From positions 2,555,501 through 2,619,500 of the forward strand of contig NZ_JAVSJA010000001.1 of NCBI RefSeq assembly GCF_032027425.1: DNA of 64,000 nt. Reading direction: 5' to 3'. Under the pieces are notes generated by a model. The model searched no databases, had not been told where the DNA came from, and was given only the letters and a program-made list of their open reading frames with translations. Both the position numbers and the translations under genes were made by a program. Shown piece after piece: positions 1,525-6,292 of the stretch; position 1 is the first letter of the stretch; each line of letters starts with the position of its first letter. The stretch comes from Microcystis wesenbergii NRERC-220 (GTDB lineage Bacteria; Cyanobacteriota; Cyanobacteriia; Cyanobacteriales; Microcystaceae).

Positions 1525-1622
1525 GTGCGATCGCCGATCTTGTAGGGTGCGTTCCTTAATGTGACTCCTACTGCTCCACTGATCGATCGATTTTTGGGGA
1601 ACGCACCATGCCCATTGATTGA
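1525..1622. repeat. Dispersed hairpin repeat, copy 1
   Basis: This copy belongs to a family seen five times in full and twice in part between 1500 and 5930. It begins with GTGCGATCGCCGATCT, continues with TAGGGTGCGTTCC and closes with GGGGAACGCACCATGC, so the outer arms GGTGCGTTCC and GGAACGCACC form a hairpin. A half copy (TAGGGTGCGTCCCACGC) follows at about 1661-1677, just before the DUF433 gene. The family has no coding capacity and looks like a MITE or REP-type element. Confidence 0.75.
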
Positions 1623-1716
1623 AACTGTGATACCAAATCCTGTTATAATAAAACGAGATATAGGGTGCGTCCCACGCAGCCTTGACCTTTTTGAAAACAC
1701 TTTCAATGATGTAGCT

Positions 1717-1947
1717 ATGGACTGGGAAACTCGAATTACACTAAATCCCGATATTTTGGTGGGAAAACCTATCATTAAAGGAACAAGGATTGCGGTTGAA
1801 TTTATCATCGATCTTCTCGCCCAAGGTTGGAGTATTGATGAAATTCTGCGAAACTACCCAGGTATTACAGTAGAAGATATTCAAGCTTGTCTTAGCTATG
1901 CTAGTGTAATGCTCAAATCTGAGAAAGTCTATGCTATTCCTGCTTAA
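1717..1947 (+). CDS. DUF433 family antitoxin-like protein
   Basis: The 76-aa product matches the DUF433 family: ITLNPDILVGKPIIKGTRI near the N-terminus, followed by a helix-turn-helix-like segment with DLLAQGWSIDEILRNYPGI and the closing VEDIQACLSYA. DUF433 proteins are small DNA-binding proteins usually encoded directly before a DUF5615 PIN-like toxin and are regarded as antitoxins. The ATG at 1717 is chosen because the longer upstream frame runs through a repeat element and lacks family similarity. The start of the partner lies 3 bp downstream at 1951, but that toxin is truncated, so the antitoxin is probably orphaned. Confidence 0.85.
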   Translation: MDWETRITLNPDILVGKPIIKGTRIAVEFIIDLLAQGWSIDEILRNYPGITVEDIQACLSYASVMLKSEKVYAIPA

Positions 1948-2089: not shown

Positions 2090-3036
2090 CGTCCCACGCG
2101 CTGGGGACCTTAATTGAATGGAAACATCAACTAATTCCCCCTTATTTTTAGACTGAGGTGATTTGAGTTCCCACTCGCTGGGGACCTTAATTGAATGGAA
2201 ACTATATTTAATTCATTGTGAGGTTCTAAAATTATGCAACTAATCAAATACACTACAGCGATCGCAATTTCTTGTCTACCTATATTCACAACACCTGTAT
2301 TAGCTCAAAATAAACAAGAAAAGTGGGTAGATTTTGGTCAAACTAATAACGGTGAAATCATAAAATTAAATGAGCGTAGTGTCAAATTTGAAATTATGTT
2401 AGCTGACGATACTCTCAATAATGAAGATGGATTTTATAGCGAGAATGATACATACCCAAAGGTAAAAGTTGTTATCTTTGAATACAGTATTGGTGGCAGA
2501 ACAAGAAATGCTTATACCAAGTCCTGTAATCATGGTAAATTAAGTGCTAATCCTAGCTGGAAAACCTACACTACTTTTATAGATTATTGGCCTCAATATT
2601 TTCTAGTTCCCGCTGATAGTATTGCTAGTCAGAATATGTTGCGACGAGTTTGTACTTTAAGTCTATCTAATCAGTAATCCTTTTTGATTATTTGAAGAAA
2701 TGTAAAGTTCCCACTCGCTGGGGACTTTAATTGAATGGAAACCATCTGTTTATTGGGTAATTGTTGATTAATGGCTTTGTTCCCACTCGCTGGGGACCTT
2801 AATTGAATGGAAACATTTGAAGCTATCTTTATCTTCAATCATACTACCCATAGGAGTTCCCACTCGCTGGGGACCTTAATTGAATGGAAACCACTTAGAA
2901 TCCCACCGACGTTTAGATTCGATCCACCGTTCCACTCGCTGGGGACCTTAATTGCATGGAAACACATATCCCTTTAGAATTAATAAAGATAATTGTTTTA
3001 GTCCCCACTCGCTGGGGATATTAATTAAATAGAAAA
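2090..3036 (+). CRISPR. Orphan CRISPR array, seven repeats, interrupted by a gene
   Basis: A 36-bp repeat beginning GTTCCCACTCGCTGGGGACC and ending TTAATTGAATGGAAAC occurs at 2090-2125 (5' end degenerate), 2167-2202, 2707-2742 (one C to T change), 2779-2814, 2856-2891, 2929-2963 (one base deleted, one changed) and 3001-3036 (several changes, ends GAAAA). Ordinary spacers are 36-41 bp. The GAAAC end suggests transcription along + and a degenerate trailer at 3036. No cas gene lies in the window. The interval 2203-2706 is 504 bp and contains a protein gene instead of a spacer. The first repeat is fused to the end of a dispersed hairpin repeat, so no leader is recognisable. Confidence 0.93.
2234..2677 (+). 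CDS. Small secreted protein encoded inside the CRISPR array
   Basis: This complete 147-aa frame sits between CRISPR repeats 2 and 3. The N-terminus MQLIKYTTAIAISCLPIFTT followed by PVLAQ is a signal peptide with a likely cleavage after VLA. The mature part is about 122 residues and begins around KWVDFGQTNNGEIIKLNERS, a W-x-x-(I/F)-G...G...LN-x-x-S pattern like that of small exported cyanobacterial proteins of unknown role. It has two cysteines (KSCNHG and RRVCTL) that could form a disulfide. The preceding TGTGAGG gives only a weak ribosome-binding site. I cannot name the family. An unbroken frame with a signal peptide argues for a real gene. Confidence 0.75.
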   Translation: MQLIKYTTAIAISCLPIFTTPVLAQNKQEKWVDFGQTNNGEIIKLNERSVKFEIMLADDTLNNEDGFYSENDTYPKVKVVIFEYSIGGRTRNAYTKSCNHGKLSANPSWKTYTTFIDYWPQYFLVPADSIASQNMLRRVCTLSLSNQ

Positions 3037-3057
3037 GCCGTAATCGGGAGTTAGTAT

Positions 3058-3333
3058 ATGCAAGCAATCCTTTTAAGCCGTGAAGAAGTTGCTCAACGGG
3101 CAGAGAAACTGTACGAAAGCAGAATCCGCCAAGAGGTGGAAGTTGAAGAAAACATTGGCAAGATGGTCATCATTGACATTGAAACAGGTGACTACAAAGT
3201 TGATAAAAATGGCTTACACGCTGCTGACTTATTGAGCGAGAAACACCCCCATGCTCGGCTCTTTGGGATCAAAATTGGCTACAACGTTGCTGCCGCTTTT
3301 GGTGGGGGTGTTATGGAGCGTGTAGTTAAGTGA
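3058..3333 (+). CDS. 91-aa protein of a protease-linked two-gene module, copy 1
   Basis: The family is unnamed as far as I know. Its sequence is clearly paralogous to the protein at 3945-4220: both carry a KLYES-x-IRQ-x-VE motif near residue 20, GK-(M/I)-V then IDIETG near residues 36-45, and a later HP-x-A segment before an IG-(Y/H) motif. It looks like a small soluble alpha/beta protein. The stop codon overlaps the GTG start of the aspartic-protease gene, so the two are translationally coupled. The same order and overlap recur in copy 2. The arrangement resembles a TA-style pair, but that is inference. Confidence 0.8.
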   Translation: MQAILLSREEVAQRAEKLYESRIRQEVEVEENIGKMVIIDIETGDYKVDKNGLHAADLLSEKHPHARLFGIKIGYNVAAAFGGGVMERVVK

Positions 3334-3695
3334 TTTCAGGTATTGTGGCTAATGGACACCCGCTTATCACTATCCCATTTCGGATTCCAAATCGCGCTGA
3401 CTTTCCGATTGAGTTTGTAGTAGATACAGGATTTACAGATGAGCTTTGTTTACCACCCGAAGCAGTAGCATTACTGAATCTTCCTTTCAGGTACGATATG
3501 CGTGCGAATTTAGCAGACAACAGCCAAGTAATGCTGCCTCTTCACAAAGCAATTATTATCTGGAATGGTGAGGAGTGAGAAACTCGTGTATTTGCCACAG
3601 GGCGGCGACCCCTGGTTGGAACTGCTTTATTAGATAGCTATGAACTTGTGATTCAGTTTACGGAAGGTGGGTTGGTAACGATTGATGATTTGTAG
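3330..3695 (+). pseudogene. Clan AA aspartic protease (AF_0612-like), interrupted by in-frame TGA
   Basis: The product is a retropepsin-like small aspartic protease. It starts with GTG at 3330 overlapping the preceding stop and has the catalytic motif in FVVDTGFTDELCLP. The frame hits TGA at 3576-3578 after 82 codons. The same frame then continues without a further stop through RPLVGTALLDSYELVIQF to TAG at 3693-3695, giving the family's usual ~121 residues. A single nonsense change therefore removes the C-terminal flap/hydrophobic-Gly region (LVGTALL). Unless the stop is read through, the protein is inactive. The intact paralogue lies at 4217-4585. Confidence 0.82.
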
Positions 3696-3814
3696 TGCGA
3701 TGCCGAAGGCACTGCGTAGCAGCACGCTGATCTTGTAGGGTGCGTTCCCTAATGCAAGTCCTACTGCTCCACTGATCGATTTTTGGGGAACGCACCATGC
3801 ACATTGATTGAAGC
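3695..3814. repeat. Dispersed hairpin repeat, copy 2
   Basis: Full copy: GTGCGATGCCGAAGGCACTG, then a CGTAGCAGCACGCTGATCT block, then GGGTGCGTTCCCTAATG and the closing arm GGGGAACGCACCATGC with ACATTGATTGAAGC. It follows the stop of the broken protease directly and separates the two protease modules. Confidence 0.78.
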
Positions 3815-3944
3815 GCCGATTCAAATTTGAAGTGCACCACTGGGGGGCTTCCGATGAGGCGGCTCATCAGTAGTAGAGCGGGAGCACTTCGTTAGAATAA
3901 ATCAGAGTATAATTAAGGCAAAATACTGAGTTGAGGTCAACCAG

Positions 3945-4220
3945 ATGGCAGTTCGTCAACGGCGTTATCCCAAAGATGAGTTAGCCGAGCGAGGGCAAAA
4001 ACTCTACGAATCTGGCATTCGGCAGCAAGTCGAAGCCGGTAATGAAGGTAAGATTGTAGCGATCGACATTGAAACTGGAGAGTTTGAAGTCGATGAAAAC
4101 GTTGTGCCTGCAACTAATCGGCTCTTTGAACGTCACCCCGATGCCCAACCTTGGATCATTCGTATCGGACATCGCGCTGTTTATCATTTCGGGGCACGGA
4201 GTTTGAAGAAAAATCCATGA
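3945..4220 (+). CDS. 91-aa protein of a protease-linked two-gene module, copy 2
   Basis: This is a paralogue of the 91-aa protein at 3058-3333, of identical length, sharing KLYESGIRQQVE, GKIVAIDIETGEFEVDEN and ERHPDAQ followed by IRIGHRAVYHFG. The ATG at 3945 is preceded by GAGGTCAACCAG, a usable ribosome-binding site. Its stop TGA (4218-4220) overlaps the ATG of the downstream aspartic protease at 4217. Family function is unknown to me. Conservation of IDIETG and IG-H in both copies suggests a real fold. It may be the substrate, inhibitor or antitoxin of the protease; this is an inference from coupling alone. Confidence 0.82.
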   Translation: MAVRQRRYPKDELAERGQKLYESGIRQQVEAGNEGKIVAIDIETGEFEVDENVVPATNRLFERHPDAQPWIIRIGHRAVYHFGARSLKKNP

Positions 4221-4585
4221 TGGAAGGTGTTGTCAATTGGCGGCGTGAAGCCACGCTAACGATTGTAGTCGGAAACTCAAATCGGCAACTGCAAGCGGTT
4301 GACGCGGTGATTGATACCGGGTTCAATGGATTTTTATCTTTGCCCTCTACAATCATCGCTACATTAAATTTACCTTGGAGTGGTTCTGATTTTGTCACGC
4401 TGGGTGATGGCAGTGAAACTTATTTTGATCTGTACACTGGGACTGTGATATGGGATGGGCAGTACCAAGAGATTGATATTGCAGAATCAGAAACAGAGCC
4501 TCTACTAGGAATGGCGCTGCTTTACAGATATCGGTTGCAGGTCGATAACATTGAGGGCGGTAAGGTCAAGATTGAAGCCTTATGA
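4217..4585 (+). CDS. Clan AA aspartic protease, AF_0612-like, intact
   Basis: A 122-aa retropepsin-like protein. The catalytic triad motif is in AVIDTGFNGFLSLP (around residue 38), and the later LLGMALLYRYRL is the hydrophobic-hydrophobic-Gly segment typical of clan AA proteases, which dimerise to form one active site. The ATG at 4217 overlaps the preceding gene's TGA; the longer frame starting at 4151 would begin inside the 91-aa gene and lacks family similarity. Next to it, copy 1 of the same protease is broken by a stop, so this is probably the only working one of the two. The substrate is unknown. Confidence 0.87.
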   Translation: MMEGVVNWRREATLTIVVGNSNRQLQAVDAVIDTGFNGFLSLPSTIIATLNLPWSGSDFVTLGDGSETYFDLYTGTVIWDGQYQEIDIAESETEPLLGMALLYRYRLQVDNIEGGKVKIEAL

Positions 4586-5025: not shown

Positions 5026-5271
5026 ATGAGCGTAGTTATTCCTAATGACATACTGACCGCATCAGGACTCTCCGAAGACGAGCTAAAACTAGAAATCGCC
5101 ATCATGCTCTTTAAACAAGACAAAATCAGCATCGGCAAAGCCCGTCATCTTGCAGGCATGAACCTCCTCCAATTTCAACACGAACTTAATCTACGAGAGA
5201 TTTGTGTCCATTATGACCTTGAAGAATTAGAAGAAGACATCCAAACCTTACAAAAACTAGGCAGACTATGA
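5026..5271 (+). CDS. UPF0175 family antitoxin
   Basis: The 81-aa protein fits UPF0175: an N-terminal strand, then LSEDELKLEIAIMLFKQDKI followed by SIGKARHLAGMNLLQFQHEL, the characteristic helix-turn-helix with GKARHLAGM. These proteins are DNA-binding antitoxins usually encoded just before a PIN-like DUF3368 toxin, as here. The C-terminal acidic tail (DLEELEEDIQTLQKLGRL) would wrap the toxin. The toxin ATG at 5268 overlaps the stop of this gene by 4 bp, indicating translational coupling. A binding site in its own promoter is likely but not visible. Confidence 0.88.
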   Translation: MSVVIPNDILTASGLSEDELKLEIAIMLFKQDKISIGKARHLAGMNLLQFQHELNLREICVHYDLEELEEDIQTLQKLGRL

Positions 5272-5753
5272 TCGTCGTGAGTGACACCTCACCCATTACC
5301 AACCTAGCCGCCGTTAACCAGTTAACCCTTTTGCATCAACTCTATGGAACAATTATCATTCCTCAAGCCGTTTATGAGGAAATGGCGAGTTTAGGTTACG
5401 CCGTTCCTGGCACGATTGAAATCATGACCTTATCTTGGATAGAAACACGGCCCGTCACCCAGCAAAACCAAGTTAATCAACTACTCAATAAATTAGACCG
5501 AGGAGAATCAGAAGGGATTATTTTAGCGCTAGAATTAGGCGCAGATATATTAATTTTGGATGAAAGAAAAGGACGCAAAGTTGCACGATCTCTTGGGCTA
5601 AATATTACTGGAATATTGGGCGTTTTACTCGAAGCCAAGCAAAAAGAATTGATTATGAATATTAAACCGATTGTTGATCAGCTAATCTCAAAAGCAGAAT
5701 TCCGAATTAGCGAAACACTCTACAGAAAGGTTTTGACAATTGCGGGAGAATGA
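5268..5753 (+). CDS. DUF3368 PIN-like toxin
   Basis: The 161-aa protein has the PIN-fold landmarks: VVSDTSPITNLA at the N-terminus (first catalytic Asp), LDRGESEGIILALELGAD in the middle (Glu/Asp of the active site) and ILILDERKGRKVARSLGL, the LDE/R-G-R-x-A signature of DUF3368. PIN proteins are metal-dependent RNases. Length and motifs look complete. With the overlapping UPF0175 gene it forms an intact toxin-antitoxin pair. The RNA target cannot be read from the sequence. Confidence 0.88.
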   Translation: MIVVSDTSPITNLAAVNQLTLLHQLYGTIIIPQAVYEEMASLGYAVPGTIEIMTLSWIETRPVTQQNQVNQLLNKLDRGESEGIILALELGADILILDERKGRKVARSLGLNITGILGVLLEAKQKELIMNIKPIVDQLISKAEFRISETLYRKVLTIAGE

Positions 5754-6049: not shown

Positions 6050-6292
6050 ATGCCCCAAGCTTTGAAAGCGATTTATCATAGTGGTACGTTCATCCTTCAA
6101 ACAGCTTACGATTTACCTGAAGGCACTGAGGTGGAGCTTTTTGTAAAATCACCTCAAATTATTCCCCCAAAGATTACCGATATTGCGGCTAGGCAGAATT
6201 TTTTAAGGCTGCTTGTTGAGCGAATGCAACAAAACCCCATTCCCTCTAATGCTCCCCAGTTTACGAGAGATATGTTGCATGAACGCCGTTGA
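6050..6292 (+). CDS. AF2212-like (DUF104) antitoxin
   Basis: The 80-aa protein begins MPQALKAIYHSGTFILQ and continues DLPEGTEVELFV, the swapped-hairpin N-terminal domain of AF2212-like antitoxins (formerly DUF104), with the A-x-Y-x-x-G-x-(F/L) and LPEGTEV motifs. The C-terminal half is a variable helix that would bind the partner. The PIN gene downstream starts inside this gene, overlapping its last 14 bp in another frame. Together they form a second intact PIN-type pair in this island. Confidence 0.85.
   Translation: MPQALKAIYHSGTFILQTAYDLPEGTEVELFVKSPQIIPPKITDIAARQNFLRLLVERMQQNPIPSNAPQFTRDMLHERR

Follow-up and report, generated by a model that had tools for sequence, protein, structure and literature searches.

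A small protein encoded just upstream of retropepsin-like proteases in Microcystis and other cyanobacteria, and its possible role as their restraining partner

Single-domain retropepsins of prokaryotes share the fold of the HIV protease. In the staphostatin/staphopain and SpeB/Spi pairs, a protease is encoded next to a dedicated inhibitor or propeptide-like protein, and the enzymes are cysteine proteases. Prokaryotic proteins of about 120 residues, grouped as COG3577 and COG5550, are described as little known (PMC2642776). In Microcystis, protease and toxin-antitoxin (TA) biology are linked by the orthocaspase MaOC1, a cysteine protease that is reported to cleave the antitoxin of a separate RelE/ParE toxin belonging to a ParE/ParD-like pair (PMC7935541). 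Here, we analysed a stretch of 64,000 nucleotides from Microcystis wesenbergii NRERC-220, hereafter referred to as the window, in which a small protein, A, is twice followed by a clan AA aspartic protease, B. The pair resembles type II TA systems in having two small overlapping genes in constant order, an upstream member that is tolerated alone and a downstream member that is not, a spread over plasmids and in multiple copies, and TA-like neighbours. It differs from them in that the downstream member is an aspartic protease, with putative toxicity and neutralisation, and in that A has no antitoxin-family match among the families tested, PF09720 being found in fused forms only; furthermore, many type II antitoxins have a DNA-binding domain, and none is evident in A. 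Like staphostatin/staphopain and SpeB/Spi, a protease stands beside a dedicated partner, but those enzymes are cysteine proteases with other inhibitors. MaOC1 differs in that the protease of A-B would itself be the restrained member. On balance, A is probably a dedicated partner that restrains B, in a protease-inhibitor pair that evolves like a TA module.

Two A-B units stand in tandem on the plus strand of the window, at 3058-3695 and 3945-4585, as read from the sequence and its open reading frames (Table 1). Their common design, a 91-residue protein with the core IDIETG followed by a protease gene with a 4-bp overlap, had been described in an earlier note on this DNA and was confirmed, coordinates included. 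The overlap is GTGA in the first unit, where the B1 start codon GTG at 3330 falls within the A1 stop codon, and ATGA in the second, where B2 starts with the ATG at 4217 and a further ATG is found at 4220. The same note had read one of the two proteases as lost by a nonsense change beside an open partner, which is borne out for B1 by a TGA at 3576-3578. This internal stop lies near profile position 83 and the frame runs onward to 3692, while the same two units have an open B1 in Microcystis viridis FACHB-1342 (L012) and M. wesenbergii FACHB-1317 (L013), in both of which the A2 protein is 100% identical. Recoding or read-through of the TGA was set aside because L012 and L013 have a sense codon at that position. 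The two units had also been taken for a paralogous duplication. They are paralogues, but the duplication is not a recent one: identity is 42% between A1 and A2 and 32% between B2 and a B1-type relative (L068), and B1-type and B2-type units also stand in tandem in L012, L013 and L068. Judged from these identities, they are old paralogues, members of two old subfamilies placed side by side, and a recent duplication is excluded.

Table 1 Features of the window in and around the two A-B units.
Feature	Position in window	Strand	Basis
A1: 91-aa small partner protein, MQAILLS subtype, intact	3058..3333	+	ORF; A-profile match G000:C1:2558558-2558812
B1: clan AA DTGF aspartic protease, GTG start, ended by in-frame TGA	3330..3578	+	ORF, TIGR03698
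B1 remainder past the TGA, same frame, natural stop included	3579..3695	+	TIGR03698 match over profile positions 77-106 (E 0.013)
A2: 91-aa small partner protein, MAVRQRRY subtype, intact	3945..4220	+	ORF, alignment, mean model pLDDT 76
B2: clan AA DTGF aspartic protease, ATG start, intact	4217..4585	+	TIGR03698 E 2.4e-15; invariant D-T-G and L-x-G; model pLDDT 94
DUF433 match	1561-1947		Family search
UPF0175 and DUF3368 matches	5026-5753		Family search
AF2212-like match, then putative PIN-like ORF (stretch to 6686)	6050-6292		Family search

The genome that contains the window (4.68 Mb) has A at four places by single-sequence search, a row at E 0.485 not being counted as a match, and a fifth A, of a different subtype, was reached by profile search. 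There are five TIGR03698 matches, B1 and B2 included. The match at 2,260 kb stands after an A, the one at 400 kb stands after a subtype-3 A (L009; L172), and for the one at 2,273 kb (L133), which is of the DTGA type, no adjacent A was seen. At 3,149 kb (L201), the B that accompanies A is reduced to a remnant.

B2 and the B1 tail match the family TIGR03698 with the E-values given in Table 1, and B1 up to its stop does so with an E-value of 3.1e-15. The scores of B2 and of B1 up to its stop, 56.7 and 56.4 bits, are marginal, slightly below the curated cut-off of 57.35, and the B1 locus read through the TGA scores 82.6 bits, above that cut-off. Residues D33, T34, G35, L96 and G98, which make up the D-T-G and L-x-G motifs, are invariant in 41 aligned B proteins. 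The model of B2 is confident and comprises a single, mostly β, domain, and the B profile matches the solved retropepsin-like enzymes ApRick and DDI1 of the PDB (E about 2e-4). By these matches and motifs, B is a single-domain retropepsin-like aspartic protease, a clan AA DTGF member of TIGR03698, in agreement with what had been proposed from the window alone, and it is presumably active as a homodimer. COG5550 may be another name for B. The family model also covers DTGA-type members, which stand alone where their loci were read, whereas the DTGF-type B is paired with A. Among loci with room upstream, A precedes 119 of 121 ORFs with DTGF, DTGY or DSGF and none of 12 with DTGA, DTGS or DSGA, a count from which 20 motif-less ORFs were left out, in which overlapping loci of one place are unmerged, and which is biased because most of those loci were fetched through A. 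The two exceptions are a locus with a transposase between A and B (L106) and one with A and B in one frame (L127). On this count, the paired members of the wider protease family are of the DTGF/DTGY type.

Protein A occurs in three subtypes, which can be described as MQAILLS.., M-VRQ-RYSKEE.. and ..WYIAIEPDSGDYF.., respectively. In profile comparison, the alignment of all subtypes matches subtype 3 alone with a probability of 99.9%, two sets with members in common, and searches with the subtype-3 profile recover other A proteins at E-values as low as 4e-6; by this measure the three subtypes are one family. The sole invariant residue in 50 members is the Gly of IETG/DSG. The model of A2 consists of a helix (10-30), two strands (37-41 and 47-50), a second helix (53-63) and a third strand (69-73), followed by a tail, residues 79-91, with a pLDDT below 50. 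For the 50 members, Pfam gave a best E-value of 0.019 and no better family, and the members tested had no relevant match in NCBIfam, PADLOC or PHROGs, the fused form excepted. A1 itself has zero matches above cut-off in Pfam, NCBIfam, PADLOC and PHROGs, and neither A protein of the window matches an antitoxin family in Pfam, NCBIfam or PADLOC. Compared by sequence with solved structures, A has a best match with an E-value of 0.82, and no recognised DNA-binding domain or known effector domain was found among the families tested. The fused form, in which A lies in frame behind a putative-addiction-module domain of the PF09720 type, was found in three genomes of one family (L100, L275 and L277); PF09720 is over its cut-off in L100 (E 2.5e-9), and the other two were assigned by reading and by likeness. 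As had been suspected, no named system with this pair was found in the family libraries or in the open-licence literature searched, and that literature yielded no description of a partner of DTGF proteases.

That A and B form a module, as the earlier note supposed, is upheld by their homologues, which occur mostly together. In 80 contig loci and the genome of the window, four loci that repeat its own region having been dropped, 85 of 94 A hits are followed directly by a B ORF, intact or broken. These 85 junctions comprise 66 with a 4-bp overlap through the start codon, 14 with a 1-bp overlap and 5 with neither. Searches of 292 cyanobacterial genomes with the two profiles found A in 65 and B in 63, with both in 61, A only in 4 and B only in 2 (Fisher p 2e-55), and B has up to 10 copies per genome. 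Counts led by B and by A were made on the best 150 matches of each in the 292 genomes, lists in which weak and decayed copies are under-sampled and the counts are phylogenetically non-independent. A lies just upstream in 147 of the best 150 B matches and within 1.3 kb in the other three, and no B without A within 1.3 kb was found among these 150. A listed A on the same strand pairs with 101 of them, and 46 more have A just upstream on reading, the regions of the 49 other B and of 49 unpaired A having been read individually. The profile ends are -1 to 23 bp apart in 99 of the 101 listed pairs and about 175 bp apart in two, and no pair is on opposite strands.

Some loci depart from this arrangement. 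In L147/L196, a transposase-like gene (IS630-like by eye) lies between A and an open B. In L184/L242, genes resembling DUF433 and DUF5615 (by eye) separate A from a B that has lost its start. In L155/L204, B is 5'-truncated, with its first 25 positions missing, and is about 600 bp from A. The cassette inside the module of L184/L242 also has a HicB-like ORF (by eye). An A-B fusion in one frame (G116:C98, L127/L148) was rejected as a functional fusion because frame changes have removed both ends of A. At other loci (L128, L129, L130 and L166), two or three A-B pairs follow one another in tandem, and in L166 two A genes precede one B.

The pair is carried by plasmids. A subtype-3 B query hit 22 of 72,556 plasmid records, each time next to an A place, and an A query of the same subtype hit 27, of which 5 lack a B match. 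The plasmids are without exception cyanobacterial, and several are near-identical plasmids of related strains. An A-B pair adjoins ParA on a 37-kb mobilizable Tolypothrix plasmid, and A alone adjoins ParA on another. No relative was seen in 65 pattern stretches of viral contigs, from a non-exhaustive search with one motif, and no match to subtype-3 A in 50,697 phage records; a phage origin was set aside on these searches. A metagenome bin titled Bacteroidetes (L014 / G292) has a near-identical Microcystis-type module, which is probably a binning error. Across the phylum of that genome, TIGR03698 has 24 matches in 17 of 198 genomes. Of the 13 loci read there, A is present in both DTGF ones (L295 and L303) and was not seen in the remaining eleven. 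L295 closely copies the Microcystis unit and may stem from a binning error. The A profile has 7 matches in 5 of 296 genomes of this phylum. Six A loci were read, L303 and the first five of the list. A stands before a DTGF-type B in L303 and L318 and before a decayed one in L316 and L317, and no B was seen in L315 and L319. The order to which the L303 genome belongs has 13 B matches in 10 of 114 genomes, with A directly upstream in 10, two at an edge and one weak partial match without A. A broken B beside an open A is found in this second phylum in L324, L326, L328 and L334, and in the last A is joined in frame to the B remnant.

The two proteins have changed together. The distance matrices of A and B over 141 distinct pairs correlate at 0.93 (best of 1000 permutations, 0.084), and within one subtype (n=58) at 0.846 (best permutation, 0.293). 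When B is sorted into three classes, the closest A always comes with a B of the same class (141 of 141). The median dN/dS is 0.116 for A (731 comparisons) and 0.127 for B (640 comparisons), and both genes are under purifying selection. For intact solo A, measured against the nearest paired relative, dN/dS is 0.090 (n=39) compared with 0.100 for paired A (n=134), values that leave room for recent relaxation because the comparison includes the paired branch.

Loss of the two genes is asymmetric. Among the best 150 A matches, 49 have no paired listed B, and 38 of these, from 27 genomes, combine an intact A with a missing or remnant B. The 38 divide into 14 with a B remnant and 24 without a B match within 400 bp; of the latter, L204 and L242 have a 5'-truncated B farther away, and a short B start was seen by eye in some (L202, L209, L211). 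The other 11 unpaired A comprise nine broken ones, one with a transposase and one at a contig edge. Intact B is missing in all 7 listed A that have stops inside. An internal stop in B beside an intact A was found 7 times (B1 of the window, L099, L165, L170, L278, L280 and L281), with L099 and L278 sharing the stop position and perhaps representing one event. An open B with a damaged A was found at a single locus (L148); for the 101 listed pairs, A was judged from the listing, as free of stops within its match. In L128, L164, L166, L173 and L279, the stops flagged in B were natural ends and were rejected as damage. If decay followed length alone, about 43% of singly broken units would have A broken; the observed asymmetry departs from this expectation with a binomial p of 3e-10, or of 4e-6 with genomes counted once. 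Lost coupling fails to explain it, because an untranslated B would still show an open frame for a time. In TA modules the toxin is not kept without the antitoxin and the antitoxin may persist alone, and here 38 intact solo A and 7 stopped B stand against one reverse case, in agreement with the plasmid records. Such a loss pattern, which the earlier note had put forward from the window alone, is what would be expected if A were protective.

A possible relative of A is DUF5678 (PF18929), a small domain that likewise stands just before, or is fused to, retropepsin-like proteases. It matches in 24 of 146 cyanobacterial genomes. In 6 of 12 loci read (L248, L249, L253, L256, L257 and L258), it is fused N-terminally to a retropepsin-like part; in L255 it precedes a retropepsin-like gene as an overlapping gene, and in the Microcystis loci L250-L252 it stands alone. 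In L253, Pfam gives DUF5678 with an E-value of 1.4e-13 and Asp_protease_2 with one of 4e-6, and L257 is likewise. The two differ in that A has no PF18929 match, with zero matches at E 0.5 for 50 A members, and in that the protease partners of DUF5678 carry DSGAE, or NSGAE in L256. For want of a Pfam match, DUF5678 was rejected as a name for A and kept as a possible distant relative. The first A alignment compared with DUF5678 gave a probability of 4.6% (score 18.7; 60 shuffles reached at most 16.2) and subtype 3 alone gave 0.3%. A widened A set gave 35% (score 25.1, E 4e-4, against a maximum of 15.6 in 100 column shuffles), its added rows being hand-chosen and including a DUF5678-like ORF selected by eye, a choice that may bias the comparison towards a match. 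The widened alignment is in register over the strand-turn-strand core. A may be distantly related to DUF5678, and the arrangement hints that bacterial retropepsins may generally be controlled by a small domain, either N-terminal or encoded upstream. In L333, an A-B pair is closely followed on its 3' side by a short ORF that resembles DUF5678 by eye (1774-1944, minus-strand reading).

In the mechanism that we propose, B would be translationally coupled to A and made right after it, and A would hold it in check as an inhibitor or a trans-acting pro-domain, its α/β core and flexible C-terminal tail engaging the protease. A would be the antitoxin-like member, B without A being selected against and A without B being harmless, and on loss or degradation of A the freed protease would cut cellular targets. 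Whether this amounts to a true TA system is more doubtful, and we lean against it. Some points tell against the proposed mechanism itself. Where DUF5678, the possible relative of A, is fused to other retropepsins, the two make up a single chain, as would befit a lasting regulatory domain more than a short-lived antitoxin. Solo A shows no detectable relaxation and may have a function independent of B, and the fusion to an addiction-module domain was seen in no more than three genomes, which are related. Only tentatively would we place A-B in a new TA class, with a retropepsin-like toxin and an unnamed family of small inhibitors as antitoxin, found in cyanobacteria and on their plasmids as well as in one or more further phyla, and of common origin with the DUF5678 built-in regulators of other bacterial retropepsins.

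Three other explanations compete with restraint of B by A. A could be an effector or regulator and B its processing protease, which would cut it, for example in the tail, within a small regulatory circuit. The low pLDDT of that tail, the purifying selection that persists on solo A and the tight co-evolution would suit such a circuit, but B alone should then be about as tolerable as A alone, with about three cases of broken A beside open B for every four of the reverse, whereas 1 was seen against 38 plus 7; moreover, A has no known effector domain, and we regard this explanation as rather unlikely. A could instead be a folding or activating cofactor of B, as the fusions of DUF5678 and its overlapping gene in L255 might suggest, A and B making up one enzyme for a housekeeping or stress task; coupling and the order of decay would then account for the resemblance to TA modules. 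Decay would be expected of a cofactor that has lost its enzyme, yet B is often lost with A kept, and presence in 63 of 292 genomes, multiple copies and plasmid carriage are unlike a housekeeping enzyme, which makes a cofactor role improbable. Finally, the association could be a hitch-hiking relic of the spread of mobile elements, with no functional link, given that the modules are multi-copy, lie on plasmids and are in two cases split by a transposase or a gene cassette. Against this, the genes keep their order and stay close together in two phyla and three subtypes, along with the overlap, the matched distances and the purifying selection, and the linkage counts largely refute it; we give hitch-hiking hardly any credence.

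A dedicated partner offers a direct handle on the little-known function and control of prokaryotic retropepsins. If A does restrain B, the pair would be an addiction module built on a protease, and A would be a natural protein that inhibits a retropepsin-like enzyme; to our knowledge, both are unusual. A family that carries the annotation 'hypothetical protein' in the plasmid records read would then gain a role.

The surroundings of the two units agree with the earlier description of them as lying among TA-type genes, the neighbours matching DUF433, UPF0175, DUF3368 and AF2212-like families, which are common in TA pairs. Promoter and terminator scans gave counts no higher than in shuffles. At 2706-3038 there are five CRISPR-like direct repeats, spaced 72-77 bases from start to start, with the last two copies degenerate; they end about 20 bases 5' of A1.
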